Source of the DNA: Deltaproteobacteria bacterium | GTDB taxonomy: Bacteria; Myxococcota_A; Polyangia; HGW-17 | DNA: 64,000 bases | Assembly: GCA_016937155.1 (NCBI GenBank) | Contig: JAFGWM010000025.1 | Location: 1-64,000 of the forward strand | Direction of reading: 5' to 3' | In this document: one piece after another, positions 44,847-63,122 of the stretch | Numbering within the stretch: the first letter of the stretch is position 1 | Layout of the letters: each line of letters starts with the position of its first letter | The notes under the pieces: model-generated | The model's input: the letters and a program-made list of their open reading frames with translations, nothing else | The model's database searches: none | What the model was told of the DNA's origin: nothing | Position numbers and translations under genes: made by a program

Positions 44847-44918
44847 TTCTGTTTATTCCTGAAATTTCCTGTCATAATCCCACCGGCAAATCGAACTTAC
44901 AATTCAATGGGAGTAAAC

Positions 44919-46154
44919 ATGCTAAAAAACCTGATAATTTTAGTTTATTTTTTATCTGTCTTTCTTCCCTGCGGGTGTGATGACTCCAAAACAACTGAGC
45001 CGGTCATTGTGGTCCAGGGAATAACCGATGACCAATGCGGAAGTGTCCGCATGACACATTACACAGCATCGGATAGCGGGTGGTGCGGCTTCAGAACCAC
45101 CCATGATGTTCTTCCAGAATTTGTAAGACAGCGATATATCGTCGCAATAGCTGAACCATGGAACGGTTCATCATATGGAGGTGAAGTAGGTGAGGCATGT
45201 GGAGAATGCTGGGAAATCGATTCCATCTACGGAAAACAGACAGTAATGGTTGCCGACCTTTGTCCGGTGGAAGGAAATCCCGTGTGTGCAGGAGATCATT
45301 TTCACTTTGATCTGTCATCAGAAGCATTTCAGATACTGGGTGATGGTGAGGCTTCAGCTCATCGAATACCCTGCCCTGTTTCCGGAAATATTCATATTGA
45401 ACTCAACAGCAGGAATGAATGGGGATATGTCAGCCTGGCTTTTTTCAACCACCGCTTTCCAATAAGATATGCTGACTACCGGGCTGCAGATTCTGATGAA
45501 TGGATTCCTCTCACCAGAGAAGGGGGAAGTTGGAGAATTGAAAATGACAATTACACTTTCTCTAAAAACGGCCCAGGTGGAACCTTTCGTTTTACATCCC
45601 CATCCGGTGAAATTATCCAAGGGAATCAGGTTCTCACATATGAATACGAAACAGATGATGTTTTTGATACTGGAGTAAATTTTGAAGCAGCGTTGCCGTT
45701 GGTGGAAACATGCGAATATTACCCACCTTCTGATGTATATGACGAAGGATATGGAGGTATCGATGGAGCCCGATGGACACCCAATCCGTGGGGAAACGCC
45801 ACCATGAAGGAAATTAGTACTGACTGTGCTCAGGATAGTGAGTCGTGTATTCTGATTAAAAACATGTCAATGGGAGATGGTTTTCATATTTATTACCGGA
45901 ATCCGTTTCCTGTGAGTACTTTTAGTACACTGACTTTAAGTTTCAGAGCACAATCAGGTTCAGGAAGTCTGGTGGTGGCGCCATCCAATGGAAGCCGATG
46001 TACAGAAACAACTATTGAAGCTAACTCTGAGTGGCAGAGTGTGGTAATTAATGTTCCTGAAAGCTGCAGCGAGTTTTCAGAAATCAATGGTGTTACTTTT
46101 TCCAGCCGGACTGATAATATTGATCTTGTTGTTGACGAAATTTATTTCGATTGA
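44919..46154 (+). CDS. Expansin-like lipoprotein (DPBB domain plus binding domains)
   Basis: The ATG at 44919 has GGGAG 5 bases upstream; the earlier ATG (44907) has none. A lipoprotein signal ends LPCGC. Residues of about 40-150 form the double-psi beta-barrel of expansins: MTHYTASDSGWCGF, GECWEI, TVMVADLCPV and HFDLSSEAF (the conserved acidic residues are present). The second domain (about 155-235) resembles the cellulose-binding D2 (CBM63) domain. A third beta-sandwich domain of about 150 residues ends the protein. Expansins loosen polysaccharide networks without hydrolysis. The fit is to bacterial EXLX-type proteins, anchored as a lipoprotein. Confidence 0.8.
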   Translation: MLKNLIILVYFLSVFLPCGCDDSKTTEPVIVVQGITDDQCGSVRMTHYTASDSGWCGFRTTHDVLPEFVRQRYIVAIAEPWNGSSYGGEVGEACGECWEIDSIYGKQTVMVADLCPVEGNPVCAGDHFHFDLSSEAFQILGDGEASAHRIPCPVSGNIHIELNSRNEWGYVSLAFFNHRFPIRYADYRAADSDEWIPLTREGGSWRIENDNYTFSKNGPGGTFRFTSPSGEIIQGNQVLTYEYETDDVFDTGVNFEAALPLVETCEYYPPSDVYDEGYGGIDGARWTPNPWGNATMKEISTDCAQDSESCILIKNMSMGDGFHIYYRNPFPVSTFSTLTLSFRAQSGSGSLVVAPSNGSRCTETTIEANSEWQSVVINVPESCSEFSEINGVTFSSRTDNIDLVVDEIYFD

Positions 46155-47519: not shown

Positions 47520-47639
47520 TTGAATATTTTTTTCATTATATTGTTTGTAATTTTTATTTTCACGATTACGATAAACGCGATTTTGTATCAGGAGTATCCG
47601 TTTGAGGGATGCCCTATTCCTTTCAGGATAAGGAGTGAA

Positions 47640-48128
47640 ATGAAAAATCTATTTATTTTCAGCGTGTTGCTGTTTTCTGTGTGGGTTTTACTCAATGCCA
47701 GTATCGATAAAAGCATACTGATAGTTGGTGGTTTTTTATCAATTATACTTTCTCTGCTATTTTCTAAAAACAGAAGTATTTTCAGTAGCATAAAGATTTC
47801 TCCAAAAAGTTTTTTGTATTTTTTCCTCTACATTTTCGTACTGCTCATAGAAGTGATAAAAGCAAATTTTGATGTGGCTCGTAGAGTGATTATGCCCACA
47901 ATCCCAATCAATCCAGGAGTGGTGGAAGTTAAAACAAAACTGAAATCCCCCGTTGCGCGATTGATACTGGCCAACTCCATAACCCTCACTCCCGGCACAC
48001 TCACTGTGGATATAAAAGACGAAACATTACTTGTGCACTGGATTGACGTAAAATCCACGGATCTTGAGAAAACAACAAAATATATAGCAGCTTCATTCGA
48101 GAAATATCTGGAGGTTATTTATGGTTGA
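47640..48128 (+). CDS. mrpE: Mrp antiporter subunit E (MrpE/MnhE)
   Basis: The ATG at 47640 has AAGGAG 6 bases upstream and gives the usual 162 residues. The same frame is open from a TTG at 47520, but the extra part lacks family resemblance. Two or three membrane helices are followed by the MrpE cytoplasmic domain (MPTIPINPGVVEVKTKLKSP and NSITLTPGTLTVD). It is the first gene of the Mrp/Nuo operon and overlaps mrpF by 8 bases. Confidence 0.92.
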   Translation: MKNLFIFSVLLFSVWVLLNASIDKSILIVGGFLSIILSLLFSKNRSIFSSIKISPKSFLYFFLYIFVLLIEVIKANFDVARRVIMPTIPINPGVVEVKTKLKSPVARLILANSITLTPGTLTVDIKDETLLVHWIDVKSTDLEKTTKYIAASFEKYLEVIYG

Positions 48129-48381
48129 AACCATCATCAATATTTCAATGGGTCTGATAATACTGGCAGGATTGCTTGGAAGTGTTCGTTTCTTTATTGG
48201 GCCGTCCATATATGACCGAGTCATTGCTCTGGATGTTCTTACAATAATTTCCATTTCCCTTATTGCTTTACTTTCCCATGTGGCAGGCCGTGCGCTATTC
48301 CTTGATATTGCAATTGTTTACGGTTTGCTGAGCTTCATTGCTGTACTTGCTATCAGCCGCTACCTTGAAAGGGGGCTCTGA
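48121..48381 (+). CDS. mrpF: Mrp antiporter subunit F (MrpF/MnhF)
   Basis: The 86-residue protein has three membrane helices and the MrpF core GPSIYDRVIALDVL. It is a small integral subunit of the Na+/H+ antiporter. It shares one base with mrpG. Confidence 0.93.
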   Translation: MVETIINISMGLIILAGLLGSVRFFIGPSIYDRVIALDVLTIISISLIALLSHVAGRALFLDIAIVYGLLSFIAVLAISRYLERGL

Positions 48382-48701
48382 TGCATATTCTCCATATTTC
48401 CGGAGCAATCACACTGCTTGCCGGTTCCATTTTTCTTGTACTTGGTGCCCTTGGTGTAGTGCGCATGCCTGACCCTTTCAACCGCATACAGGCAGGAACC
48501 AAGGCAACAACACTTGGCACAATATTAGTAATGTCCGGTCTGGGGATGCTTCATCCCTCCTGGCTGCCCAAACTCTTTATACTGATTTTCTTTATTGTTA
48601 TCACAAATCCAATCAGTTCTCATGTACTGGCAAGAGTGATGCATAATCTTCAGGTTCCTCTCTGGAGCAAAAAAGATCAATTATCAGAAGAGGAGGAATA
48701 A
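48381..48701 (+). CDS. mrpG: Mrp antiporter subunit G (MrpG/MnhG)
   Basis: The 106-residue protein has three membrane helices and the MrpG sequence LGALGVVRMPDPFNRIQAGTKATTLG. It is required for antiporter assembly. It overlaps the next gene by one base. Confidence 0.93.
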   Translation: MHILHISGAITLLAGSIFLVLGALGVVRMPDPFNRIQAGTKATTLGTILVMSGLGMLHPSWLPKLFILIFFIVITNPISSHVLARVMHNLQVPLWSKKDQLSEEEE

Positions 48702-48946
48702 TGTTACCTGTATTATTGACTATTCTGGTGATTATCATGCTTTTAGGAGGCCTACTGGCAGTTGAGCATAAAAGTCTTCTCATTGGTGTTATTTCAGCAG
48801 GTCTTGTGAGCCTTACTGCTTCTATAATATATGTGATACTCGCTGCCCCAGATGTTGCAATGACAGAGGCAGCCATCGGTTCAGGACTATCAACGGTGAT
48901 GTTTCTTTATGTTTTAAGACGTATCAAGGGGGACTCCAATGCTTAA
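48701..48946 (+). CDS. DUF4040-type Mrp/MbhD subunit
   Basis: The 81-residue protein has two or three membrane helices and the DUF4040 signature DVAMTEAAIGSGLSTVMFL. It corresponds to the C-terminal part of MrpA and to MbhD of archaeal Mbh. It overlaps the next gene by 8 bases. Confidence 0.88.
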   Translation: MLPVLLTILVIIMLLGGLLAVEHKSLLIGVISAGLVSLTASIIYVILAAPDVAMTEAAIGSGLSTVMFLYVLRRIKGDSNA

Positions 48947-49640
48947 AAAATTATTTGCCCTGATACTGATAGGCGGGCTTGGTCTCATATTTTTTCAACT
49001 GTATAATCAGCGTTCCCGACGTGAAGGACTCACCAAAACCGCTTCATACTATACAGAGAAAGGTCCGGCAGAAACCAGAAGTGCAAATATTGTCACCTCC
49101 GTTGTTGTCACCTACCGTGGGCTGGACACCCTTGGTGAAGTCACCATTTTATTTGCAGCAGCGTCAATTATCGGTTTTTTCCTGAAACGAAGTGAAAAAG
49201 GCTCAAAAGATAAAACTATTCGAAATCAAAGCAGTGAGCTTCTTCAGACCGGTAGTATGCTTCTGGTACCACTTATTTTCCTTCTGGGTATCTATGTTTT
49301 TGTGAATGGACACCTTTCACCCGGAGGAGGATTTCAGGGCGGAGCAATCATTGCATCCGGTACAGTGCTTGCATTCCTTGCCAACCCTTCATTTGAAGGA
49401 GGACGTACTTTAATCCATATTCTGGAATCACTTTCGGGAATGTTCTATGTGGGAATTGGAGTGGCAGGAATCTTTCTCGCAGCAGGTTTTCTGGACAATC
49501 GCATTTTCCCCACAGGGAATGTCGGGAGTTTTATTTCCGCAGGAGCAATTCCGGTAATCTACAGCATTATAGGTCTCAAAGTGGGAGCTGAACTTTCAGC
49601 TATACTTTATTCCTTAAGAGATACAAAGGAGCAGCAGTAA
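48939..49640 (+). CDS. mrpB: MrpB/MnhB-type antiporter subunit (MbhE/F-like)
   Basis: The 233 residues join an MbhE-like N-terminal part (VTSVVVTYRGLDTLGEVTILFAAA) to the MnhB domain (SPGGGFQGGAIIASGTVLAF). It has about six membrane helices. In other operons these are two genes; here one polypeptide carries both. It overlaps the next gene by one base. Confidence 0.88.
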   Translation: MLKKLFALILIGGLGLIFFQLYNQRSRREGLTKTASYYTEKGPAETRSANIVTSVVVTYRGLDTLGEVTILFAAASIIGFFLKRSEKGSKDKTIRNQSSELLQTGSMLLVPLIFLLGIYVFVNGHLSPGGGFQGGAIIASGTVLAFLANPSFEGGRTLIHILESLSGMFYVGIGVAGIFLAAGFLDNRIFPTGNVGSFISAGAIPVIYSIIGLKVGAELSAILYSLRDTKEQQ

Positions 49641-49999
49641 TGATCCATATCGCTCTAGCAGGAGGTGCACTTCTCATTTTCATCGGGATCTGGGGAATGC
49701 TCACAAAAAAGAATATAATACGGATCATAATCGGATTTTCCCTTTTTGACACCGGGTTGCATGTTGTATTGGTGGGGCTGGGATATCTGAAAAACCGTAC
49801 AGCTCCGATTGTTGACGCTGATCTTCCGGCAAAAGCAGCATCTTCACAGTCTGTGGATCCGGTTCCTCAGGCTATTGTTCTGACGGCTATCGTTATAGGT
49901 CTGGCTGTCACATCGGTGCTACTGGTGTTCGCATTAAAGCTCTACCAGAGTAAAAACACCCTTGATATCAACAAACTCAGGGATAATACCAATGATTAA
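49640..49999 (+). CDS. mrpC: MrpC/NuoK-like subunit
   Basis: The 119-residue protein is the MnhC/NuoK-like subunit with three helices: NIIRIIIGFSLFDTGLHVVLVGLG, and DPVPQAIVLTAIVIGLAVTSVLLVFAL. It lies in the antiporter module and overlaps the next gene by 8 bases. Confidence 0.9.
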   Translation: MIHIALAGGALLIFIGIWGMLTKKNIIRIIIGFSLFDTGLHVVLVGLGYLKNRTAPIVDADLPAKAASSQSVDPVPQAIVLTAIVIGLAVTSVLLVFALKLYQSKNTLDINKLRDNTND

Positions 50000-52900
50000 C
50001 CCAATATATATTGTCGCTATAGGTCTGGGAACTGCTTTCTCTTTGGGACTCCTGCGAAAGCTGGGAAAAGAATTTTCGTTCTGGGTCACCATATTTGCTC
50101 TTGGTGCCATGGCCTTCATTTCAGGGCACTGGCTCAGTGCGTTTCTTTCTCATCAGATTACATCAACGGTTATTACCACTGCTGGAGGTAAAGCCCCATT
50201 TGTAATTGTTTTCAATATGGGAATGACTGAAGCACTTTTTTCATTCATGGTCACCATGGGTGCTGTTTTTTCAGGTTTTTACCTTCATGATCGCCTTATT
50301 GAGAGCGGGCCATCAGCTATGGCTGTACTTTTAGCCGGAACAATGGGCCTTAATGGAATAATCCTCACTGGGGATATTTTCAATCTGTTCGTATTCATGG
50401 AGATTTCAGCTATTGCCACCGCAGGCCTTGTATTACTCGTATCTGATTTTAAAGCATTGCAGGCAGGATTTAAATTCATGCTTGCATCTGGCATTATCTC
50501 CGGCCTTCTTTTGCTTGGTATTATTTTTCTGTATAATTCAACGGGAACACTTAATATCAGTGAGCTTCATTCGAAAGCCGGCGTAATCTTAAAGTCAGGG
50601 GGTGTTGCCACTTACCTGATAACCATAGCTCTACTTCTTGAATTAAAACCATTTCCCGCAAATGGCTGGGGAGTGGATCTCTACGAGGGCGCTCCATCCG
50701 GAGTTAGCGCATTCATTGCATCGTCATCCGCAACAGCCGCTTTTTTTGTGTTCCTTAAGGTTCTTCCCCTTGGCGGTGATATATCCCTCCGGATTGCTGC
50801 TGCTGCAGGTATTTCAACATTTGTTTTCTCAAACCTTATGGCGCTGTCATACAAAAACACCTCCAGACTTCTCGGATATTCTTCCATCGGCCAACTGGGG
50901 CTTTTAGTTGGCATAGCCGGTCTTTCAAAACATCTTGGTGATAAAACCCTGATGATTATTCTTACTCTTCTTGGAACACATTATCTGGCAAAAGCTGGAT
51001 TATTCTGGCTTTCCGGGATTGTCAAAAATCCAAACACTGATGAATGGCGCAGTTTGCGTAAATCCCCTGTGCTTTTTGCATTTTTCGGCGTCTTCATATT
51101 TGCTTTGCTTGGTTTTCCTCCATTTCCATCATTTTTTGGGAAATGGGAACTCATTATGGGTCTGGTTGCCACAAAAATGTACTGGTGGGCCGGTGCTATT
51201 CTTCTGGGAACTATGTTTGAGGGTATTTATCTGTTCCGGTGGTTCAGTCGGGCCCTTAAACTCCAGAACAATGATACAGCCACACCTGCCGTGACCATTT
51301 ACAGCATATTACCAGTTGTATTCTTTGGCTTTTTCCTGTTCTATGCAGGGTATTACACAAGCACATTCGTGCCAGCTCTGCGGGTCATGTGTCTGGCTCC
51401 TCTTTTGTTTATACTTTTACTTGGTCTTTTGGATTTTCTGCCGGCATTTCTTAAAAATATCATCTCTCTTGCAGGTGTAACTGCATATATCGTGTATCTG
51501 TGGCCACATATTCAGGGAAATACCTTTAAAATAGTATTTGCCGGAATATTTCTGGGAGGTGCAATTCTTGCGCTAATCGCAGGATTTTACAGACGTGGAA
51601 AACATATGGGCTTTTACCCAATGACAATGCTCATGTTTCTGGGTCTGGGAATCCTCGTGGATGCATCAAACCTTCTTGAGCTCTTCTATGGATGGGAACT
51701 TATGACCATAGGCAGCTATTTCCTGCTGATTCGCGGGGAACGCTCTCTTCCACACGGTCTCAGTTATCTTCTGTTCTCCCTTGGTGGTTCCCTTGCAATG
51801 CTTTTTGGATTTGCTCTTGCTCATGCCAGTTCGGGAAGTGTGGACCTCTCAGCTCTCAATCATATCCGGATAATGCCGGCTCTGGCTTATTCGCTGATGC
51901 TGGCGGGTTTCATGACAAAGACCGCTTCTTTGGGTCTTCATATATGGCTTCCCGGTGCCCATGGTGAGGCTGTAGCTGATATTCACTTCATGGCATCTGC
52001 AATTTTACTCAAGGCTGGTGTCTTTGGAATTATTCTGGTTCTCGGTGGAATGGGAAATACCCAGCCCTATGCACAAAAAATCCTTTTCGTTCTCGGCTGG
52101 ATAGGTGCACTGACAGCTCTCATCGGTAACATAGGAGCTGCATTTCAGGAAAGTGCCAAATATCTTCTTGCATGGTCATCCATAGGCCAGTTGGGATATA
52201 TTGTTTTCGGTCTTGCATCCATGACACATCTGGGATGGCTTGCAGCATACGGATATACAATAACTCATTTCCTTTACAAGGGTATTCTGTTCCTACTCAT
52301 CGGTGGAGTTGCATTCAGAGTGGGAACTGCCGATATGTATAAAATGGGTGGGTTGATAAAAAGAATGCCTTTCTCATTTTTTGCTGTTCTCATAGCAATT
52401 ATCACCCTAGCTGGGATACCCCCTCTGGTTGGGTTCACAGGTAAATGGCTAGTATACAACATGATTTTATCAAAACATCTGTTTTATCAGGGTGTGGTGA
52501 TTATTATTTCCGGAGTTATTGCGTTCCTGTATCTGTTCAGACTCATTCATGTAATTTTTCTGGGTCAACTCAAGGACAGAAACAGAAAGGTCAAAGAGGT
52601 TTATGTATGGCTTCTTATTCCTGCCTATCTCATGCTTACAGCCATTTTCGCACTTTCAATGTTCCCGGACATGATGCTGGCCAGACTTGGAAGAATGCTT
52701 ACACCTTCCTTCCCTGAAGGAGCTCTGGTCTGGGATGGTTTCACCGCAAGCAGCAGATACGGAACCTTTAATCTGCAGATTATAATGGCGGTCATCGGAG
52801 CAACCTTCGCAGCTGTCTTTTTATGGCTTGTTTTTGCCAATAGAAAAGCCCAGAAAGTAAAACAGTTCAACATTTTCTACTCCGGTGAAGCACCTTCAAG

Positions 52901-53129
52901 ACCGGAACTGACCCATTATGGATATAATTTCTTTGCTCACTACCGTAAGGCTGTGGGTTTCATGGCAACACCACTGGTCACCCGGTTCTGGGATCAACTT
53001 TCTCAGGGACTGCATGGTCTTTCATCTTACGGTCGCGCCATATACACAGGTAACGCCCAAAGCTATCTTTATCATATAGTTGCCTTTGTGGTTGTGGTTT
53101 ATCTGCTCTCCGCGGGAGGTATCTCATGA
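49992..53129 (+). CDS. Fused tandem antiporter-like subunits (MrpD/MbhH plus NuoL/HyfB-like)
   Basis: The protein is 1045 residues from the ATG at 49992, about twice the length of one NuoN/MrpD. The first half has the proton-conducting core TGDIFNLFVFMEISAIATAGLVLL and LELKPFPANGWGVDLYEGAPSGVSAF. The second half repeats it as LELFYGWELMTIGSYFLL and TKTASLGLHIWLPGAHGEAVADIHFMAS. Each has its key Glu in TM5 (ME and WE) and Lys in TM7. Archaeal Mbs/Mbx-type complexes code these as two genes, so the fusion is a distinct trait. It is followed by the NuoH-like gene with a 4-base overlap. Confidence 0.88.
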   Translation: MINPIYIVAIGLGTAFSLGLLRKLGKEFSFWVTIFALGAMAFISGHWLSAFLSHQITSTVITTAGGKAPFVIVFNMGMTEALFSFMVTMGAVFSGFYLHDRLIESGPSAMAVLLAGTMGLNGIILTGDIFNLFVFMEISAIATAGLVLLVSDFKALQAGFKFMLASGIISGLLLLGIIFLYNSTGTLNISELHSKAGVILKSGGVATYLITIALLLELKPFPANGWGVDLYEGAPSGVSAFIASSSATAAFFVFLKVLPLGGDISLRIAAAAGISTFVFSNLMALSYKNTSRLLGYSSIGQLGLLVGIAGLSKHLGDKTLMIILTLLGTHYLAKAGLFWLSGIVKNPNTDEWRSLRKSPVLFAFFGVFIFALLGFPPFPSFFGKWELIMGLVATKMYWWAGAILLGTMFEGIYLFRWFSRALKLQNNDTATPAVTIYSILPVVFFGFFLFYAGYYTSTFVPALRVMCLAPLLFILLLGLLDFLPAFLKNIISLAGVTAYIVYLWPHIQGNTFKIVFAGIFLGGAILALIAGFYRRGKHMGFYPMTMLMFLGLGILVDASNLLELFYGWELMTIGSYFLLIRGERSLPHGLSYLLFSLGGSLAMLFGFALAHASSGSVDLSALNHIRIMPALAYSLMLAGFMTKTASLGLHIWLPGAHGEAVADIHFMASAILLKAGVFGIILVLGGMGNTQPYAQKILFVLGWIGALTALIGNIGAAFQESAKYLLAWSSIGQLGYIVFGLASMTHLGWLAAYGYTITHFLYKGILFLLIGGVAFRVGTADMYKMGGLIKRMPFSFFAVLIAIITLAGIPPLVGFTGKWLVYNMILSKHLFYQGVVIIISGVIAFLYLFRLIHVIFLGQLKDRNRKVKEVYVWLLIPAYLMLTAIFALSMFPDMMLARLGRMLTPSFPEGALVWDGFTASSRYGTFNLQIIMAVIGATFAAVFLWLVFANRKAQKVKQFNIFYSGEAPSRPELTHYGYNFFAHYRKAVGFMATPLVTRFWDQLSQGLHGLSSYGRAIYTGNAQSYLYHIVAFVVVVYLLSAGGIS

Positions 53130-54031
53130 ACTTCGATCCCATGAAAATTCCCTGGTCACTTCTGGGGTTGGTCATCGTTTTTACAATCGGCATGTTTATC
53201 CGCGGGATTGTACCGAAAATAACTGCCCGTGCAGGCATGCGCATTGGAATACGCTTCTATCAGCCATGGATTGACCTGATAAAGCACTTCTCCATCCAGA
53301 CTTCAATCACTCATGGTGTTATGTTCTATCTGGGACCAGTTTTTCGTCTTACAGGCGGAGTATCCATGATTCTCTTCATGCCACTTATTTATGGCTCATG
53401 GTACTTTTCCAACTTCGCATTTGCCGGAGACATGGTGCTTTTTCTTTACATGATGTTTTTTGGAACATTGGGAATGGCTCTGGGAGCCGGAGAGAGTGGA
53501 CATCCATACAGTGCCATAGGTGTTTCACGTGGTCTTGCTCAGGTAACCGTAGCTGAAATTCCTCTGGTACTTGCTCTTTTATCAGTGGCAGCACAGCACA
53601 ATACCCTTTCCATCACCGAAATAGTTGCTGCCCAGCAGGGTGGAATATCACACTGGACAATGGTTACAAACCCTGTGGCCACTATGGCGGGAATGCTTGC
53701 ACTTTTAGGTTCCATGATGAATTCACCCTTCAATGTGGTTCTCGCTCCCCAGGAAATACCCGTGGGTCCTCCCACAGAATATCATGGTACTTTTCTTGGA
53801 ATCATGAACACCAACCGTTCAATATTTCCTGTGGCAAAAGTCGTGTTTTTTATGAATATATTTTTTGGAGGTGCCACAAACTGGGGCATCCTTATTCTGA
53901 AATCATTTATCATTTACATGTGGCCCGTGTTTGTGGGACTGGTTTTCCCGCGGTTCAGGGTAGATCAATCCATTCGCTGGTTTCTCAAGGTGCCGATGCT
54001 GCTGGGAATTTTAGCAGTAGCCCTGATTTAA
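53126..54031 (+). CDS. NuoH/MbhM-like membrane subunit
   Basis: The 301-residue protein has eight membrane helices. It shows RFYQPWIDLIKHFS (the N-terminal quinone/connection loop), GESGHPYSAIGVSRGLAQVTVAEIPLVLALL and the acidic SPFNVVLAPQEIPVGPPTEYHG. NuoH/HycD-type subunits join the peripheral arm to the ion pump. It overlaps the gene before it by 4 bases. Confidence 0.9.
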   Translation: MNFDPMKIPWSLLGLVIVFTIGMFIRGIVPKITARAGMRIGIRFYQPWIDLIKHFSIQTSITHGVMFYLGPVFRLTGGVSMILFMPLIYGSWYFSNFAFAGDMVLFLYMMFFGTLGMALGAGESGHPYSAIGVSRGLAQVTVAEIPLVLALLSVAAQHNTLSITEIVAAQQGGISHWTMVTNPVATMAGMLALLGSMMNSPFNVVLAPQEIPVGPPTEYHGTFLGIMNTNRSIFPVAKVVFFMNIFFGGATNWGILILKSFIIYMWPVFVGLVFPRFRVDQSIRWFLKVPMLLGILAVALI

Positions 54032-54047
54032 GAGAGTTGAGGTTTCA

Positions 54048-54689
54048 ATGACTGAAAAAAAATATCCACACCATAAAGTAACTGGCCCCGATGGTGCAGA
54101 GTTTGTTGTTACACCTATGGAGGATTACTACTGTCAGGAACGTCCTCAGGTACAAAAATCCTCAAATGCAGTTATAGAAAAATTTTATAACTGGGCAAGG
54201 GCCAACAGTCTATGGATCGTTGGTTTCGGAACAGGCTGCGGCGCCATTGAAATGAGACCCCTCAGAACCCCAAGATTTGATGCATACAGATATGGCGTCA
54301 ACTGGAGAGCAACTCCAAGACAGTCAAACCTGTTTATAATTTCCGGTTATCTGAGTGTAAAAACACTTAAACGGGTTATCAGGGTTTATGAACAGATGCA
54401 ATCTCCAAAGTATGTACTGGGTCTGGGTTCATGCACAATAAACGGGGGAATGTACTGGGACAGCTACAATACAATAAAGCGACTTGATCATTACATTCCT
54501 GTGGATGCCTATATCCCCGGTTGTATGCCCCGCCCTGAAGCTCTTCTTGATGGTTTTGAAGAACTGAAAAAAATCATCATTGCCGGAGAAGCCAACGGAG
54601 CAAACCTTTATGCGGAAAACTTTGACTGGTATAAGGCCAATCAGAAAAAAATTATTAAAAACTGGGATATGCCTGATTACAGCTGGTAG
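54048..54689 (+). CDS. NuoB/MbhJ-like iron-sulfur subunit
   Basis: The 213-residue protein matches NuoB/MbhJ: GAIEMRPLRTPRFDAYRYGV, ATPRQSNLFIISG, GSCTINGG and PGCMPRPEALLDG. Cys64, Cys129 and Cys159 fit three of the four N2 ligands. The usual Cys-Cys (NuoB) or CNGC (hydrogenase) region reads GC-G, so one ligand is replaced by Gly or supplied from elsewhere; Cys29 is a possible alternative. GAGG precedes the ATG. Confidence 0.88.
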   Translation: MTEKKYPHHKVTGPDGAEFVVTPMEDYYCQERPQVQKSSNAVIEKFYNWARANSLWIVGFGTGCGAIEMRPLRTPRFDAYRYGVNWRATPRQSNLFIISGYLSVKTLKRVIRVYEQMQSPKYVLGLGSCTINGGMYWDSYNTIKRLDHYIPVDAYIPGCMPRPEALLDGFEELKKIIIAGEANGANLYAENFDWYKANQKKIIKNWDMPDYSW

Positions 54690-54695
54690 CACAAC

Positions 54696-55232
54696 ATGAA
54701 AACATTACTCACAAATTTAAAAAAACGACACGACATAACAGCGAGTAAACTACAGAGAAACAATGAACTGTTTGTCACTGTTCCAAATAATCAGGCTGTT
54801 TCTCTGGTTACATATCTGCGTGATCATGAGGGCTTTTCGCATCTTGTTATCCTGAGTGCAGTGGACTGGCTTGAAGAAGAGGTTTTTCAACTTACCTACC
54901 TTCTGAACAATCCTGAACTAAAGCAGGATATTGGTGTACGCACTCTGGTTGACAGAAATGAGCCTGTGATGGAATCAATTCATCATTTATGGGAGCACAG
55001 TGCAACATATCAGAGAGAACTTTTTGAAATGTTCGGTATTTCCTTTCCAACAAGTCCCCGAATGGAAGAACCCTTCATCCTTGAGGGCTGGGATGGTCCA
55101 CCTCCGTACCGAAGGGATTTTGACACCCTTAAATATGCAGAGGAAACTTATTTCCCCCGTCCAGGACGTACCACAAATGATGTTGCAGCATACATGAAAG
55201 AAAAACTTTATCCGGAGGATGATAATGATTAA
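54696..55232 (+). CDS. NuoC/MbhK-like 30-kDa subunit
   Basis: The 178-residue protein has the NuoC C-terminal signature WEHSATYQRELFEMFGISF followed by PYRRDFDT. NuoC pairs with NuoD in the peripheral arm. It is separate from NuoD as in Mbh-type operons, and overlaps the next gene by 8 bases. Confidence 0.9.
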   Translation: MKTLLTNLKKRHDITASKLQRNNELFVTVPNNQAVSLVTYLRDHEGFSHLVILSAVDWLEEEVFQLTYLLNNPELKQDIGVRTLVDRNEPVMESIHHLWEHSATYQRELFEMFGISFPTSPRMEEPFILEGWDGPPPYRRDFDTLKYAEETYFPRPGRTTNDVAAYMKEKLYPEDDND

Positions 55233-56403
55233 GTTCGATGAGGATCGTTCGAGATTCCCCGAAAAAAATCCAGACGGTACCAATATTATAGATCTTGAAT
55301 CTGGACGTTTTACCCACCTGTGGCAGGGCCCTGTTCACCCCGGAATCACAGGTAATATGTCTCTCGAGCTTATTGTTCAGGGCGATGAGGTGATGAGCTG
55401 TAAAACACATGTGGGATACCTGCACAGAGGATTTGAAAAACTGATGGAACGCCGTAGATTCATTCAGTGCCTGCCAATCTGTGTGAGAATCTGTGTACCT
55501 GAACCTGATTTTAATGAATACTGCCTCTGTGCAACGGTGGAAGAACTGGCCGGAGTAGAGGTCCCCGATGCCGGGCAGTGGATGCGTACTCTACTTCTGG
55601 AAATGGCACGATTGCAGGGATATCTGATGTGGCTGGGAGGAATCTCCGGAGCTCTTGGAATGGGAATCATCGGACAATGGACGAATTATGGCCGGGATCT
55701 GATTCTCGATCGTTTTGAGGAAATAACCGGTGGCCGTGTTTATCATATGCATATGATGCCCGGTGGAGTCCGAAGTATGACTCCAGATGGTTTCAACCAG
55801 AGAATGGAAGAAAATCTCAGAGAAATTTCTGAAATTTTAAAAGATGTCCATAAAACAATGATTGAAAACACCGTATTCAGAACCAGAACAGTAGGAACCG
55901 GCTACATCGATCCGCTTATGGTAAATAAATATGGGATAACAGGACCAAATGCCAGAGCAGCAGGAATCCTCAGAGATGTTCGTATTGAGTATCCGTACCT
56001 GAGATACGGTGAGCTTGATTTTGAACCATACCTTGGAAAGGATTCCGATATCTTCACCAGAACACTGGTACGATATAATGATACACTTACCAGTGTGGAT
56101 CTCATAAGGCAGATTATGTCAAAAATGCCTTCAAAAGGTCCCTTTATGGCTGATATGCCCAATATGCTTCATTTTAAAATACCCAGGGGAGAAACCTATA
56201 TCCGTGCTGAATGCAGTCGTGGTGAATTCGGATATTACACTGTAACCGACGGTTCAGGTTACCCCAGACGAATTAATGCCCGTGGCCCCTCTTATACTCA
56301 TGGGGTTTCGCTGATTGAAAAACTTGGTATCAACGCAAATATTGCGGATGTTGCAGCACTGATGGTTTCGCTGCATATATATCCACCCGAGATAGAGAGG
56401 TAA
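55225..56403 (+). CDS. NuoD/MbhL-like catalytic subunit without NiFe ligands
   Basis: The ATG at 55225 has CCGGAGG 6 bases upstream and gives 392 residues; a second ATG 6 bases earlier lacks that spacing. It matches NuoD/HycE large subunits over HPGITGNMSLELIVQGDEV, VGYLHRGFEKLME and IEYPYLRYGELDF. At the place of the first hydrogenase motif it reads RICVPEPDF, so only one of the two Cys is kept. The second (DPCxxC) motif is absent: the end is MVSLHIYPPEIER. It cannot hold a NiFe center and is the catalytic subunit of a hydrogenase-related complex. Extra Cys at 82, 86, 90, 100 and 102 are unusual. Confidence 0.88.
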   Translation: MIKFDEDRSRFPEKNPDGTNIIDLESGRFTHLWQGPVHPGITGNMSLELIVQGDEVMSCKTHVGYLHRGFEKLMERRRFIQCLPICVRICVPEPDFNEYCLCATVEELAGVEVPDAGQWMRTLLLEMARLQGYLMWLGGISGALGMGIIGQWTNYGRDLILDRFEEITGGRVYHMHMMPGGVRSMTPDGFNQRMEENLREISEILKDVHKTMIENTVFRTRTVGTGYIDPLMVNKYGITGPNARAAGILRDVRIEYPYLRYGELDFEPYLGKDSDIFTRTLVRYNDTLTSVDLIRQIMSKMPSKGPFMADMPNMLHFKIPRGETYIRAECSRGEFGYYTVTDGSGYPRRINARGPSYTHGVSLIEKLGINANIADVAALMVSLHIYPPEIER

Positions 56404-56406
56404 CAA

Positions 56407-58197
56407 ATGGGAGTAAAGGATCTGCTCAGCCCTTTCATGGCATGGAAAAAAGTTGTTTCCGATCCGGTTACGATTACTGATCCGTTTTCCCGGGAGGCAG
56501 CTCCCCGCTACAGAGGGTTTCATAAAAATGAAATAACAACCTGCATCGGGTGCGGAACGTGTGAAGAAATCTGCATGAATAACGCTATAGATATGGTTCC
56601 AGTGGATGGAATTGAAACAAAGGACGGAGATAGCGGCCTTAGACCAAAAGTTGATTACGGCCGTTGCTGTTGGTGCGCCCTTTGCGTCGATGTCTGTACT
56701 ACAAGTTCTCTCACCATGTCCAACAAGTTCCGGTGGGTTGAAAGAGATGCTGACAATTTCCGGTTTGTCATTGGAGCTGAAGATAAATACTGGGATAATG
56801 CTGAATTAGGATACACTCGTGACCCTGATTACACACTCAACAGACCTGACCGGACTCATATGGGAGAACTGACTCCAGAAGAAAGAAGTGATTCATTCAT
56901 TGAAATGATCAAAGGGTTTTCCAAGGAAGAAGCAAGGCGTGAAGCTGACCGATGTATCGAATGCGGCCTTTGTGTTGCCACCTGCCCTGCTCATATGGGT
57001 ATCCCGCAGTATATCAAAGCCATTCGGGAAGATGATATGAAGGAAGGTCTTCGTATTCTTTATGAAACCAATCCTCTCCCGGAGATTTGCGGACGTGTCT
57101 GCACCCATAAATGCGAAAGCGTATGTGCAATGAATCATAAAGGAGATCCCATCTCCATCAGATGGCTAAAACGTTACATAGCTGACCAGATTCCTGAAGA
57201 AAGATATGCAGAAATTCTTGGAGGTGAAGTTGACGATAAATCCAATAAAACCGTTGGTATTATTGGTGCAGGGCCATCAGGACTGAGTGCCGCATATTAT
57301 CTGGCGAGAATGGGTCATGGAGTAACAGTCTATGAAGCCCTCGATAATGCCGGTGGAATGACACGCTACGGAATTCCGGAATACCGCCTTCCCTATGATC
57401 AGATTGATAAGGATGTTGCCTACATCCGCTCTCTTGGAGTTGAGTTCAAATTCAATACAAGAATTGGTGAACAGATAACACTTGAAGCTCTGCATGAGAA
57501 GCATGATGCAGTATTCGCCGGAACCGGTCTGCATCTTGGAAGGAGCACAAGAGTTGAAAATGTCGATCATCCCATGGTTTTCATGGCTGTTGATCTGCTC
57601 CGTCTGTTTACGATGGGAAAACCTATTCATGTGGGCAAAAAAATCCTTGTTATCGGTGGTGGTAACGTTGCCATGGATATTACCCGTACGTTAGCCAGAC
57701 TTCAGAATCAGAAATATGGTGAAGTTGATGTAACCACCACATGTCTTGAAACGGAAGAAACCATGCCGGCGGACTGTGAAGAAATTTATGAAGCCCGTGG
57801 AGAAAATGCTGTAATTAAACCCGGATGGGGTCCCAAAAAGATCGAACTGGATGGAGATGCAATCAAGGGACTGCACGCAGTTAAATGTCTGGCAATTTTC
57901 GATGAGAACAGAAATTTCAATCCCAGATTCGATGAAAATGAAAAATTCTTCTTCCCAGCTGACATGATCGTTGAAGCCATAGGTCAGGGAATGGATCTTT
58001 CGTGGACCGGATCCCTTAAGGAAACCATCAATTTTACCCAGAGAGGTAGAATTGAAGTTGATGAAACTTTTCAGTCATCTCTGCCATGGCTGTTTGTGGG
58101 AGGCGATATCATTCAGGGGCCAGATGTAATCCATGGAATTGCAAATGGGCAAAAGGCTGCCAAAGCCATTGACAACTACATGAGAACACTTCCCTGA
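56407..58197 (+). CDS. Fusion of NuoI-like ferredoxin subunit and GltD/NfnB-type NAD(P)H oxidoreductase
   Basis: The 596-residue protein starts with a NuoI/MbhN-like ferredoxin part with two 4Fe-4S motifs (Cys46/49/52/56 and Cys87/90/93/97). A GltD-type N-terminal part has two more Cys groups (183/186/189/193 and 228/232/236/240). An FAD loop GAGPSG (287-292) and a NAD(P) loop IGGGNVAMD near 412-424 follow, and the sequence ends VGGDIIQGPDVIHGIANGQKAA. GltD/NfnB subunits oxidise or reduce NAD(P)H. Fusion to the peripheral iron-sulfur subunit of a membrane complex would feed electrons from NAD(P)H straight into the Fe-S chain, or take them out. GAGAGG precedes the ATG. Confidence 0.88.
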   Translation: MGVKDLLSPFMAWKKVVSDPVTITDPFSREAAPRYRGFHKNEITTCIGCGTCEEICMNNAIDMVPVDGIETKDGDSGLRPKVDYGRCCWCALCVDVCTTSSLTMSNKFRWVERDADNFRFVIGAEDKYWDNAELGYTRDPDYTLNRPDRTHMGELTPEERSDSFIEMIKGFSKEEARREADRCIECGLCVATCPAHMGIPQYIKAIREDDMKEGLRILYETNPLPEICGRVCTHKCESVCAMNHKGDPISIRWLKRYIADQIPEERYAEILGGEVDDKSNKTVGIIGAGPSGLSAAYYLARMGHGVTVYEALDNAGGMTRYGIPEYRLPYDQIDKDVAYIRSLGVEFKFNTRIGEQITLEALHEKHDAVFAGTGLHLGRSTRVENVDHPMVFMAVDLLRLFTMGKPIHVGKKILVIGGGNVAMDITRTLARLQNQKYGEVDVTTTCLETEETMPADCEEIYEARGENAVIKPGWGPKKIELDGDAIKGLHAVKCLAIFDENRNFNPRFDENEKFFFPADMIVEAIGQGMDLSWTGSLKETINFTQRGRIEVDETFQSSLPWLFVGGDIIQGPDVIHGIANGQKAAKAIDNYMRTLP

Positions 58198-58226: not shown

Positions 58227-59153
58227 TCAGTTCATAATTTTGCGGAGGGTGTCTTCCAGAACATCCAGCTGTTTGAATAAATCATGAATCACAAAGTTTC
58301 CATCCTTGAACTGAGGACTCTTCCAGAAAAATGAAAGCCATTCCTGTACACCAAACTTTCCAGCTCTCATTGCAAAATCAGTTAAAAGTGCCAGGTCCAG
58401 ACATACAGGTGCCGCAAGAATAGAGTCTCTGCACAGAAAATTGATTTTTATCTGCATTGGATAACCCATCCATCCCCTGATATCTATATTATCCCAACTT
58501 TCCTTGTTATCACCCCTTGGAGGATAATAATTTATTCGAACCTTATGGTAAAGATTTCCATAAAGTTCCGGAAACTCTTCAGAACTGAGAATGGATTCAA
58601 TAACACTCAGTTTGCTTTTTTCCTTGGTTTTAAAGGAATCCGGATCATCCAGTACCAGACCATCAAGATTTCCCAGTATATTTGATGAAAACCATCCGTC
58701 AACTCCAAGCATTCTGGCTCGCAGCCCGGGGGCAATTATTGTTTTCATCAGGGTCTGCCCTGTCTTAAAATCCTTTCCTCCAATGGCAACTTTCTTTTCA
58801 TGGGATAAAGACACCAAAGCAGGGATATCCACAGTAAGATTAGGAGCACCGTTTAAAAACGGAATATTTTTCATAATGGCTGCATATGCGTATATCATTG
58901 AGGGAGAAATTTTTTCATGGCTGTTTCTCAAACCTTCCTCAAAACTTTCAATACTCAGATGCACTTCACTCAATTGCGTAAAGACTTCCGTGGAGCCACA
59001 CCAGAGCATGACTGTTCTTGAAACCTCTTTTTCTTTCATAAACCTGTCGATGTCATCCATAACCATTTTCGCCAGTTCCATTTTGGATTCACCTGACTTA
59101 AGTTTCACAGGTTCAATATTTCTTACCCATGATTTATCAAATACACCATCCAT
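58227..59153 (-). CDS. C-terminal part of interrupted myo-inositol-1-phosphate synthase
   Basis: The 308 residues continue the synthase after an in-frame TAG at 59178-59180. Conserved parts are LWCGSTEVF, FLNGAPNLTVDIP, GGKDFKTGQTLMKT, LGVDGWFSSNILGNLDGL and GYPMQIKINFLCRDSILAAPVCLDL. The Lys/Asp residues of the catalytic GGDDFKSGQT-type loop are present. This annotated start is simply the first ATG eight codons after the stop; no ribosome-binding site is obvious. Confidence 0.75.
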   Translation of the reverse strand: MDGVFDKSWVRNIEPVKLKSGESKMELAKMVMDDIDRFMKEKEVSRTVMLWCGSTEVFTQLSEVHLSIESFEEGLRNSHEKISPSMIYAYAAIMKNIPFLNGAPNLTVDIPALVSLSHEKKVAIGGKDFKTGQTLMKTIIAPGLRARMLGVDGWFSSNILGNLDGLVLDDPDSFKTKEKSKLSVIESILSSEEFPELYGNLYHKVRINYYPPRGDNKESWDNIDIRGWMGYPMQIKINFLCRDSILAAPVCLDLALLTDFAMRAGKFGVQEWLSFFWKSPQFKDGNFVIHDLFKQLDVLEDTLRKIMN

Positions 59154-59177
59154 GGGTTTTATTAATTCAAGCTTTTC

Positions 59178-59528
59178 CTACATCTGCTCCAGAGTGGAAC
59201 CATCAATTACCGAGCTTTTCAGGGCCACTTCGTAAACATTTTTCCCGTGAACATCCCATCCGCCGAATTCAATATCTTCAAGATTTGCCAGGGGCAGATA
59301 TTCCCTGAAAAGAGGGTTTTTTACTTCCTGTCTGTCACCTGAAGAAATCCTTCCCATCTGTGTCAGACTACCAATGGGCTCAGCTATTTTCATTCTTGCC
59401 GCTTCAACCCCCGCAATAAGAGTAGTAGCCACTGCTCCCATTCCGGGAATAAGAATACCAAGTTTTCCTTCAGGCAGTGGTACTTTGGTCCTGTCATTCA
59501 TTTCTTTATCAGTTTTAATTCCGGTCAT
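59178..59528 (-). CDS. N-terminal part of interrupted myo-inositol-1-phosphate synthase
   Basis: The 116 residues form the NAD-binding start: ILIPGMGAVATTLIAGVEAAR and the conserved GGWDVHGKNVYEVA. The frame ends at TAG (59178-59180), and the same frame then runs on into the C-terminal part. In homologs this position is a coding residue in the linker between the two segments. AAGGAAAT precedes the ATG. With the stop suppressed, the gene would make a full L-myo-inositol-1-phosphate synthase of about 433 residues. Confidence 0.78.
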   Translation of the reverse strand: MTGIKTDKEMNDRTKVPLPEGKLGILIPGMGAVATTLIAGVEAARMKIAEPIGSLTQMGRISSGDRQEVKNPLFREYLPLANLEDIEFGGWDVHGKNVYEVALKSSVIDGSTLEQM

Positions 59529-59646: not shown

Positions 59647-59958
59647 TCAGGTATGGTCCAGCACCGGAAGGGAAAATGCCTTTATCCCCTGTCCTGGAAC
59701 CTTTTCCCGTATTGTTTTAACAATTTTGAAGATAATTTCCTTTTCCGGCTTTTCACACATTACAGCCAGAACATGATTAGTGCCCGGCCACACATGATTA
59801 TCCATATGGGGATTGGAACTGCTTCCCTGGCCCTGAACCTGTTGCCATTTTGTAAAATACCTGATTGTCGCATCAGCTAGGTATTCCATAACTTCTGATT
59901 CCAGAGTGGATTTATAAACTAAAAGAACCATTAATAATTCATGATTTTCTTCGCACAT
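59647..59958 (-). CDS. PII-like signaling protein of the RND efflux operon
   Basis: The 103-residue protein has the PII-like ferredoxin-fold pattern: a short beta strand (LLMVLLVYKS), a helix, a central loop with HMDNHVWPGTNHVLAVMCE, and VKTIREKVPGQGIKAFSLPV at the end. It resembles DUF3240/PII-like proteins coded next to heavy-metal or multidrug RND pumps, thought to sense metals or nucleotides. It follows the RND permease by 14 bases on the same strand. The role is inferred from location and fold. Confidence 0.65.
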   Translation of the reverse strand: MCEENHELLMVLLVYKSTLESEVMEYLADATIRYFTKWQQVQGQGSSSNPHMDNHVWPGTNHVLAVMCEKPEKEIIFKIVKTIREKVPGQGIKAFSLPVLDHT

Positions 59959-59972
59959 TTTAAAGTACCCTT

Positions 59973-62900
59973 TTAAGCTGTTATTTCACTTAATTTACTT
60001 CTTTTTTTCTTTTCCTTACGGGCTTTTGCTCTTCGTTCGCTACCGCTCTCCATGGCAGTATACATAATAGGGACCAGGAAAAGAGTAACAAAGGTTGAAA
60101 CTGTGAGACCGCCTATTACCGCTGTGGACATAGCCACCCACATTTCACTTCCCTGACCGGTGGACATCGCAAGGGGAATCATGCCCACAATTGTTGTTAT
60201 TGTTGTCATTAAAACCGGTCTCAGACGGCTTCGGCCACCTTCTGTAACAGCATCAAGAATTGAATATCCTCTGGCTCTCAGAATTTTCATATAGTCAATC
60301 AGAACTATTCCGTTATTTACCACGATACCGACTAACATGATGAGACCAATGAAAGAAAGCATGGAAAGAGTCTGTCCCTTCATTACAAATGCCCATAGTG
60401 CTCCCATCATTGCAAATGGAATCGCCGTTATAATTATGAAAGGATCCCTCAGTGATTCAAACTGGGCAGCCATTACAAAATATACCAGAATAATTCCTAT
60501 TATTAATGCGATAAAGAGCATTCTGAAACTCTTCATCTGCTCCTCTCTTTCACCACTTAGTTTAACTGTAACTTCCGGAGGGGGCTTCAGAGAACTCAGC
60601 ATTGTATTCACATCCTCACTCACCGCTCCCAAATCTCTCCCTCTAATATCACCTGATACTTTGATGATTCTCTCCTCATTTTTTCTTTCAATTTTAAATG
60701 GACCAACACTCTGTTTGATTTTAGCTACGTTTCCCAGTTCAATGAAACTACCGCCCATAGTGGGAATTTTCAGCCGCATGAGATCCTTAAGACTGCTGCG
60801 ATCACTTTTTCTCATTCTCACAAGAATATCATATTCTTTACCTTCTTCTCTGAATTTACTTACTTTCGCACCATTGAATGCATTTCTCACACTTCGCCCT
60901 ATTGAGTACATACTGACCCCCATACGGGATGCCTTGTCTCTGTCGGTTTCAACGGAATACTCCGGCAAACCGTCCTTTTGGCTCACCACAACGTTGACAA
61001 TACCATTTATATTATTGAGCCTGTCTTCTATTGTTCTCGCAATATTGAGGGAAACCTCTTCATTGGAACCGTAAATTTCAATTTCTATAGGTTTTCCACC
61101 ACCCATGAGGAGTGAAGACATCATGTTGTTTGGTGCTATTTTGATTTTCGCCCCGGGAAACATAGTGGCAACTTCCTGAAAAGTATCACTTATTTCCTGA
61201 TCGGTTCTTTTTCTGTCTCCCTTGTTGATCAGTGAGATAAGTATCCGGCCCATGTTGTCACCGTATTCAGCTCCTCCCATGGATCCCGCCATCGCGCTGT
61301 CATCACTTTTCCCCCAGCTCCCTATTATTGCCTGTTTTTCCGGAACTTCCTTTTCTATTCTGGCCATAAGTTCTCTAACGTATTTACCTGTTTCCTCAGG
61401 TCTGGTTCCGGAAGGAAGTTCAATCGCAGCCTCAACAAATCCATTATCCGTAACTGGCATGTAATCGGTACCCATATATGGAATCAGGACAAGGGAAAGC
61501 ATTGCGGTTCCACCAATTACCGAAAAAGAAACCAGCTTATTGTTCAGGCAGATTTTCAGAAGAAAGAGATAACCACTTTCCAGTTTCAAAAAGGCCCACT
61601 CCGAGGAATTGTAGAGAATTTTAAAAATGCCCCAGGGTTTGGCCTTCCGAACCATCAGTGATGACAGTGTCGGAACAAGCACCAGAGCCACAATCAGTGA
61701 TGCTATCAGAGTTGCACATATTACAAATGCAAGCTGGGAAAAAAGTATCCCGATGATACCGCTGACGTATAGTATGGGAACAAATATAATAACAGTGGTC
61801 AGAGTACTGGCTATGATGGATCCCGCCACCTCACTTGAACCCTCCACTGCAGCTTCCGCCGGATTTGTACCTTTCTCAATATGGTGAACAATATTTTCAA
61901 GTATAACAATTCCGTTATCAACCACCATACCAATTGCGATGGAAAGTCCCATCAGAGAAATCATATTGAGTGTGTATCCCTTGATGTACATAAAGAGAAA
62001 CGTGACAATAAGGGATGTGGGAATTGTTATTCCAACGATAAATCCAGCCCTCAGACTTCTCAGGAAAAGCAATATGACCACAATTACAAAAAGAGCCCCG
62101 GTAATTACCACATTTGCAAGATTATCAATGGTGTTTTTAATATTCTCCGACATATCACGGATAATGTTGATTTTAATATCATCAGGGAGGGTCTTTTTGA
62201 TTATTTCAAGTTTCTCGAGAACTCTTTTCGCCACATCCACAGTGTTGGCATTTGACTGTTTATTGACGATCATCATCAATGCCACACCGGTGGATGTTTC
62301 ACTGAATAGCTCCTGCTCATTCGTTGAGAGTTTCACCTTCGCAACATCAGAAAGTCTTACGGCAGCGCCAGTGCGAGGATTCATACCAACTACCAGCTGC
62401 TCAATTTCCCTGATGGAAGTGAATTCCCCAGGGGAGCGCAACTGAAAGGATGTATGATTAATCTTGGCCTTACCGCCGGGAATTGTAAGGTTCGACGCGG
62501 AAATAATACCCTGAACTGTTTCCACGGAAATCTTCATTGCCTCCAGTCTGGCACTGTCCATATCCACCTGAATCTGCCGTTTAAGTCCACCCATAATCTG
62601 GACCTGACCGACACCATTTATTTTTTTCAACTGATCAACAATATTATCCTCTGCGAACTGCTGGAGAGATGGAAACTTTTCCGGTGTAGTCTCCACAGAG
62701 AAAATCAGTATTGGCATCATGGAAAAATCAAATTTAAAAAGAAACGGTTTTTCAGCATCCGATGGAAGATTTCTGGATGCGATATCCAGTTTATCCCTCA
62801 CATCATTTGTTGCATCTGAAAGTGATGTATCCCAGTCAAAGCTCAATGAAATAACAGATATATTCTCTTCGGATGAAGATGTTATTTTGTCAAGGCCGCT

Positions 62901-63122
62901 TACTGCACTGAGACCGTTTTCAAGAAGTTTGGTCACATTTGTTTCAACTTCTCTTGGTCCAGCTCCCGGATATGGTGTAATTACTGTGAGCATGGGAACA
63001 CTCAAATCCGGCATGAGATCCAGTTTCAGAAGATAAAAGGATAACCCTCCAAGTAATGTCAGGGACAAAAATACGATAATTGTAGCAAGGGGCCGTCTTA
63101 CACTCAAACCGGTGAGGTTCAT
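59973..63122 (-). CDS. RND-family efflux permease (HAE1-like)
   Basis: The 1049-residue permease has the full two-repeat RND layout. It starts MNLTGLSVRRPLATIIVFLSLT, and TM4 reads GMVVDNGIVILENI, keeping the first proton-relay Asp while the second is Asn. The later repeat carries LVGIVVNNGIVLIDYM. Its start overlaps the adaptor gene stop as ATGA. The C-terminal tail is Lys/Arg-rich. Substrate unknown. Confidence 0.92.
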   Translation of the reverse strand: MNLTGLSVRRPLATIIVFLSLTLLGGLSFYLLKLDLMPDLSVPMLTVITPYPGAGPREVETNVTKLLENGLSAVSGLDKITSSSEENISVISLSFDWDTSLSDATNDVRDKLDIASRNLPSDAEKPFLFKFDFSMMPILIFSVETTPEKFPSLQQFAEDNIVDQLKKINGVGQVQIMGGLKRQIQVDMDSARLEAMKISVETVQGIISASNLTIPGGKAKINHTSFQLRSPGEFTSIREIEQLVVGMNPRTGAAVRLSDVAKVKLSTNEQELFSETSTGVALMMIVNKQSNANTVDVAKRVLEKLEIIKKTLPDDIKINIIRDMSENIKNTIDNLANVVITGALFVIVVILLFLRSLRAGFIVGITIPTSLIVTFLFMYIKGYTLNMISLMGLSIAIGMVVDNGIVILENIVHHIEKGTNPAEAAVEGSSEVAGSIIASTLTTVIIFVPILYVSGIIGILFSQLAFVICATLIASLIVALVLVPTLSSLMVRKAKPWGIFKILYNSSEWAFLKLESGYLFLLKICLNNKLVSFSVIGGTAMLSLVLIPYMGTDYMPVTDNGFVEAAIELPSGTRPEETGKYVRELMARIEKEVPEKQAIIGSWGKSDDSAMAGSMGGAEYGDNMGRILISLINKGDRKRTDQEISDTFQEVATMFPGAKIKIAPNNMMSSLLMGGGKPIEIEIYGSNEEVSLNIARTIEDRLNNINGIVNVVVSQKDGLPEYSVETDRDKASRMGVSMYSIGRSVRNAFNGAKVSKFREEGKEYDILVRMRKSDRSSLKDLMRLKIPTMGGSFIELGNVAKIKQSVGPFKIERKNEERIIKVSGDIRGRDLGAVSEDVNTMLSSLKPPPEVTVKLSGEREEQMKSFRMLFIALIIGIILVYFVMAAQFESLRDPFIIITAIPFAMMGALWAFVMKGQTLSMLSFIGLIMLVGIVVNNGIVLIDYMKILRARGYSILDAVTEGGRSRLRPVLMTTITTIVGMIPLAMSTGQGSEMWVAMSTAVIGGLTVSTFVTLFLVPIMYTAMESGSERRAKARKEKKKRSKLSEITA

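Follow-up and report, generated by a model that had tools for sequence, protein, structure and literature searches.

Background

The enzyme MBS (membrane-bound sulfane reductase) is familiar from archaea as being driven by ferredoxin, and an early position on the evolutionary path to complex I has been argued for it. The closest described system to the locus studied here is the ferredoxin-driven MBS of P. furiosus. There, three Cys of MbsJ (C28, C93, and C123) bind the proximal cluster, C25 lies too far off, and catalysis takes place at the open iron of this cluster (PMC7684303). Neither MbsJ C25 nor MbsL C385 is required for MBS activity; MBS lacks complex I's quinone residues H38 and Y87, and it does not release H2S directly (PMC7684303). 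In T. maritima, mbx is induced 4.36-fold on sulfur, and MBX has been modelled as ferredoxin-driven (PMC9431562). T. maritima membranes gave no H2S from sulfur with either NAD(P)H or reduced ferredoxin. Among the related flavoproteins, T. maritima NfnB binds the phosphate of NADP through Y310-R311-R312, and DsrL enzymes carry YRR with NADP(H) and a replaced YRR with NAD(H), which is supported by kinetics (PMC7596348).

Operon structure and the fusion protein

The window, by which we mean the whole 64,000-nucleotide stretch analysed, contains 12 same-strand genes with overlapping or almost touching ends (47520-58197), in the order MrpE, MrpF, MrpG, MbhD, MbhE+MrpB, MrpC, a 1055-aa double antiporter, NuoH, NuoB, NuoC, NuoD, and, as the last gene, the fusion protein (Table 1). 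NuoE, NuoF, and NuoG are not found among the 12 genes, and no sulfur-specific gene was seen adjoining the operon. The fusion protein is encoded by an uninterrupted frame of 596 codons (56407-58197, forward strand) and is one protein. The preliminary description held that this one protein carries four 4Fe-4S Cys groups, an FAD site, and a NAD(P) site, and this is borne out: Pfam detects a Fer4 dicluster (residues 45-100), Fer4_20 (162-265), and Pyr_redox_2 (283-576), GGGN is present at residue 417, and all four Cys groups are complete and invariant across 10 aligned fusion proteins. It also called the first half NuoI-like. The ferredoxin dicluster is indeed complete, but the first 158 residues are nearest in PDB to MbsN (6u8y_N, 79 bits), whereas any complex I NuoI scores at most 43 bits.

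The remainder of the protein (residues ~150-596) matches NfnL, GltD, DPD, and NfnABC/StnABC subunits by sequence. The predicted fold of the C-terminal half matches the same proteins with Z of 31-38 (maximum 37.7) over ~400-430 residues, in an AlphaFold model made from 10 sequences in which the C-terminal half is usable and nearly all of residues 1-168 have pLDDT <50. The E-values obtained, 4e-21 and 1e-79 to 1e-73, are too low for chance. MBS has nothing that corresponds to the flavoprotein half. Beside the cluster ligands, two extra Cys, C88 (56668-56670) and C228 (57088-57090), are invariant in 10/10 aligned fusions, and so is a Lys (K255, 57169-57171) at the position of the NfnB cluster ligand Glu117. 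C228 may be a substitute cluster ligand.

Several other genes lie around the operon. Upstream, 44907-46154 encodes a lipoprotein-like protein in which an expansin-like domain (EXPB1_D1) is recognised. Downstream on the reverse strand, a Myo-inositol-1-phosphate synthase gene (58227-59528) has an in-frame TAG at 59178-59180, and both of its halves match PF07994; it may be a pseudogene, an assembly error, or a gene with a true stop. A P-II-like small protein (59647-59958, reverse strand), with a weak match below the cut-off, adjoins an AcrB-type RND transporter (59973-63122, reverse strand).

Table 1. Positions of the operon genes and of the cofactor-site features of the fusion protein in the window
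Feature	Position	Strand	Remark
MrpE-like subunit (MbsA position)	47520..48128	+	
MrpF-like subunit (MbsB position)	48121..48381	+	Named by position and homologue in the same place in other operons
MrpG-like subunit (MbsC position)	48381..48701	+	Named by position and homologue in the same place in other operons
MbhD-like subunit (MbsD position)	48701..48946	+	
MbhE + MnhB-like subunit (MbsE position)	48939..49640	+	
MrpC/NuoK-like subunit (MbsG position)	49640..49999	+	
1055-aa head-to-tail fusion of two antiporter-like pump subunits (MbsH + MbsH')	49962..53129	+	N-half 6u8y_H, C-half 6u8y_X
NuoH/MbsM-like membrane anchor	53126..54031	+	6u8y_M 138 bits, next 65
NuoB/MbsJ-like subunit	54048..54689	+	Conserved cluster ligands C64, C129, C159 only
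GTGCG motif of the NuoB/MbsJ-like subunit	54228..54242	+	G61 (MbsJ C25 position), C64 (MbsJ C28), G65 (complex I second tandem Cys position)
NuoC/MbsK-like subunit	54696..55232	+	
NuoD/MbsL-like subunit	55219..56403	+	T44, V93 at complex I H38, Y87
Fusion protein, 596 aa	56407..58197	+	MbsN/NuoI-like ferredoxin domain + NfnL/GltD-like flavoprotein
First Cys group, C46-C49-C52-C56	56542..56574	+	NuoI-like 4Fe-4S
Second Cys group, C87-C90-C93-C97	56665..56697	+	Plus extra invariant C88
Fer4_20 domain, residues 162-265	56890..57201	+	Cys C183/186/189/193 + C228/232/236/240
FAD-binding Rossmann motif, residues 283-321	57253..57369	+	Pfam
NAD-site GGGNVA motif, residues 417-422	57655..57672	+	
C446-L447-E448	57742..57750	+	Where NfnB has NADP-phosphate-binding YRR; predicts NAD(H)

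Subunit similarity and active-site residues

All seven operon stretches compared with PDB have P. furiosus MBS (6U8Y) as their best match. The scores of the best against the next match are 217 and 141 bits for the NuoB-like subunit (MbsJ), 297 and 187 for the NuoD-like subunit (MbsL), 138 and 65 for the NuoH-like subunit (MbsM), and 58 and 51 for the NuoC-like subunit (MbsK). The C-terminal half of the double antiporter scores 188 bits with MbsH' and 150 bits with MbhH of MBH, and its N-terminal half 140 bits with MbsH. In an ungapped alignment to MbsJ, the window NuoB-like subunit has G61 at the C25 position, followed by C64, C129, and C159 at the three ligand positions, and G65 stands where complex I has the second tandem Cys; in the NuoD-like subunit, T44 and V93 occupy the positions of H38 and Y87. 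With three Cys, no tandem Cys, and both quinone residues replaced, the site matches MBS in its ligand pattern, and neither complex I nor hydrogenase. The nearest families of the NuoD-like subunit are NuoD and not hydrogenase. The four NiFe Cys of group 4 [NiFe] hydrogenase are not present as a set, and of the two retained by MBS (C85 and C385), only one is kept, as C92.

The resemblance to MBS is not complete. MbsJ C25 is entirely missing from the window clade (the window and loci L030, L036, L043, and L044), and Tyr stands at the MbsL C385 position in three of these (the window, L030, and L036). In an unrooted NuoD tree of 14 sequences, the window clade is separate from the clade of MbsL and the second operon copy described below (split support 1.00). 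This position outside MbsL, together with the Tyr, suggests that the acceptor may have changed.

Cofactor preference

GltD-like proteins across the loci examined fall into two types, with either YRR or (C/S/A)LE at the position of the NADP-phosphate motif. The second type includes the window fusion together with the second copy and the relatives in the family, and the first includes L036, L043, and L044. As CLE replaces YRR in the window, its fusion is predicted to use NAD(H), and NADP(H) is predicted for L036, L043, and L044. Cofactor preference, which the preliminary description had left between NAD and NADP, thus receives a provisional answer. The same two-state pattern recurs among GltD-like proteins of loci L017-L028, which suggests repeated NADP/NAD switches.

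Distribution of the fusion

The preliminary description proposed looking for the fusion next to Mrp/Nuo genes in other genomes, and would have been refuted by halves that are separate in relatives and joined here by error. In every MBS-like locus located, the fusion occupies the same place in the operon, and a separate NuoI is found in complex I operons. A sequencing error is ruled out by 11 contiguous versions in 10 genomes, and neither error nor chance fusion fits its being contiguous in all MBS-like loci examined. Among 360 genomes of the phylum, every NuoD match of at least 281 bits is followed by the fusion, and the two next-best NuoD matches (209 and 219 bits) belong to complex I of the usual kind, whose NuoB has CC and whose NuoI is separate. 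The fusion family occurs in 5/379 genomes. The fusion is thus a stable trait of the complex and rare overall. The operon type of the window is also present in G051 (same class), in G129 and G149 (same phylum), and in L036, a Proteobacteria MAG, which was the only locus found in a scan of named genomes with the single fusion protein. A distant-mode search of a plasmid collection gave no match.

A second, diverged, whole MBS-type operon is present in the same genome (G000:C9:3505-14392, L029), whose fusion is 47-50% identical to that of the window. Its antiporters are unfused, it neighbours 2-oxoacid:ferredoxin oxidoreductase genes, and its type is also found in the relatives G001, G002, G004, G007, and G009. 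This second copy has His at the complex I H38 position and CTGC in MbsJ, and a rubrerythrin-like gene lies beside it.

The fusion type is already curated as NCBIfam NF010590/PRK13984 ("putative oxidoreductase") and is not new as a protein. Residues 3-593 of the window fusion align with positions 8-607 of the 611 in the model, at 855-856 bits. Of 14 control genomes, T. maritima is the only one with this family, above the cut-off, and its protein, presumably TM1217, would adjoin mbx (TM1205-1216).

Genome context

In the genome, whose assembly is 95% complete, the only PF00346 (49-kDa) proteins are the two MBS-like ones, and thus no complex I is detected. MenD, MqnA, and MqnD were not found in the assembly, and a UbiA homologue lies beside a polyprenyl-synthase-like gene (G000:C44, ~30.6-32.3 kb, L055). 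Rnf-like genes and several NuoF-type proteins are present, along with three CoA-disulfide-reductase-like flavoproteins that score below curated cut-offs. Subject to the 95% completeness for the absences, this content fits an anaerobe lacking complex I.

Proposed reaction and alternatives

We propose, with a probability of about 0.5, that the complex is an ion-pumping NADH:sulfane-sulfur (polysulfide) oxidoreductase. NADH would be the donor according to the published motif rule, homology and the ligand pattern point to sulfane sulfur as the acceptor, and homology suggests forward direction and ion pumping. NADH would reduce the FAD of the flavoprotein half, from which electrons would cross the Fer4_20 pair of clusters and then the NuoI-like pair before reaching the proximal cluster of NuoB/MbsJ. 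The open iron of this three-Cys cluster would reduce a polysulfide or a similar S-S compound in a chamber between the NuoB, NuoD, and NuoH subunits. A conformational change would then move H+ through the two antiporter-like domains, and the Mrp-like subunits would yield a Na+ gradient. Support comes from the best PDB matches to MBS, the three Cys ligands, the loss of H38 and Y87, the CLE motif, the constant position of the fusion in all MBS-like loci found, the presence in the assembly of only the two MBS-like 49-kDa proteins, the lack there of MenD and MqnA/D, and the induction of mbx on sulfur in T. maritima, a carrier of the fusion family. Estimated from textbook potentials, the span from NADH to polysulfide is small, so that few ions would be moved per electron pair. 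This small span speaks against our proposal, as do the ferredoxin-driven model of MBX, the outlying NuoD clade, the Tyr at the MbsL C385 position, the lack of an adjoining sulfur-specific gene, and the existence of a UbiA homologue. The lack of H2S from T. maritima membranes also counts against it, though MBS itself releases none directly.

Ferredoxin could instead be the main donor, docking as it does in P. furiosus MBS onto the NuoI-like clusters, with the flavoprotein being a side port for NAD(H) and the complex balancing ferredoxin, NADH, and sulfane sulfur. MBS is driven in this way, MBX is modelled likewise, the ferredoxin domain of the fusion is complete, and the second operon lies beside 2-oxoacid:ferredoxin oxidoreductase genes. 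However, the Rnf-like gene set already covers ferredoxin/NAD exchange, and a covalent, dedicated NAD(H) module on the entry clusters would be hard to explain if ferredoxin were enough; we regard this alternative as unlikely but worth serious consideration. The preliminary description pictured a built-in pyridine-nucleotide module doing without NuoEFG. The module itself stands, as the fusion is real, lies in an Mrp/Nuo-type operon, and is a plausible input, but the active site is MBS-like and not complex-I-like. The replacement of H38 and Y87, the missing tandem Cys of the N2 motif, the lack of MenD and MqnA/MqnD in the assembly, and the fact that all tested subunits are nearer MBS make it improbable that the complex is a compact complex I, i.e., an NADH:quinone oxidoreductase with GltD replacing NuoEFG, despite its Nuo-like architecture overall and the UbiA homologue adjoining the polyprenyl-synthase-like gene.

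Complex-I-type enzymes are reversible, and with a small NADH/sulfane span an ion gradient might drive NAD+ reduction from sulfide, thiols, or short polysulfides. Although the related flavoprotein DsrL works preferentially towards NAD+ reduction in a sulfur-oxidising organism (PMC7596348), the bifurcating-type NuoF-like proteins, Rnf-like genes, and 2-oxoacid:ferredoxin oxidoreductase are typical of a fermenter that has reductant in surplus, and reverse running appears quite improbable. The nearest folds include bifurcating NfnL and NfnABC and StnABC subunits, which would fit bifurcation at the FAD, NADH giving one electron to sulfane sulfur via the complex and one to ferredoxin. The operon, however, has no NfnS partner or other second flavin subunit, and the NfnB Glu117 ligand is Lys in the fusions. 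GltD and DPD have the same fold without bifurcating, and we give bifurcation very little credence.

If the NADH:sulfane-sulfur reading is true, an MBS-type complex in a bacterium, with an NAD(H) flavoprotein fused to it, would be a second route to NADH oxidation in the superfamily and would connect sulfur reduction and ion pumping to the pool of NADH in anaerobes without complex I. Cofactor use is directly testable through the YRR/xLE split seen within the fusion family. More tentatively, and with rather less confidence, the window complex could form a separate, third branch of the complex I/MBS superfamily, NADH-driven and passing electrons to a non-quinone acceptor (sulfane or another disulfide) at an open-iron cluster; with its sister copy it would be the only complex-I-type pump in a menaquinone-free bacterium, its NADH input having been reached independently of NuoEFG. 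Our literature search, which is not proof of absence, found no description of a flavoprotein on an MBS complex or of an NADH-type MBS variant. The protein family is not new, and it is the identity as an NADH-type MBS variant that was not found described in the literature searched.

Comparison with known systems

The window fusion shares the fused architecture of NF010590/PRK13984 end to end, but its score is under the equivalog cut-off of 946. With NfnL/NfnB, GltD, DPD, and Stn/NfnABC it has in common the Fer4_20 and FAD/NAD(P) fold, and it differs from them in being fused to an MbsN domain, in CLE against the NADP(H)-binding YRR of the Nfn bifurcating transhydrogenase, and in Lys against the Glu117 ligand of NfnB. 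Like respiratory complex I, the complex has homologues of NuoB, C, D, H, I, and the antiporters and a putative pyridine-nucleotide input; unlike it, the operon is without NuoE/F/G, the tandem Cys (CG against CC), and H38/Y87, and all tested subunits score lower with complex I than with MBS. The likeness to P. furiosus MBS extends to the best PDB match of seven stretches, the three-Cys proximal cluster, and the missing quinone residues, whereas in the window MbsN is fused to a flavoprotein of predicted NAD(H) type, the counterparts of MbsH and MbsH' are joined in a single protein, no Cys stands at the MbsJ C25 and MbsL C385 positions, and the unrooted NuoD tree puts the window outside the MbsL branch. 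Judged from its sequence, the putative complex is most aptly called MBS-like, with an input module added to it.
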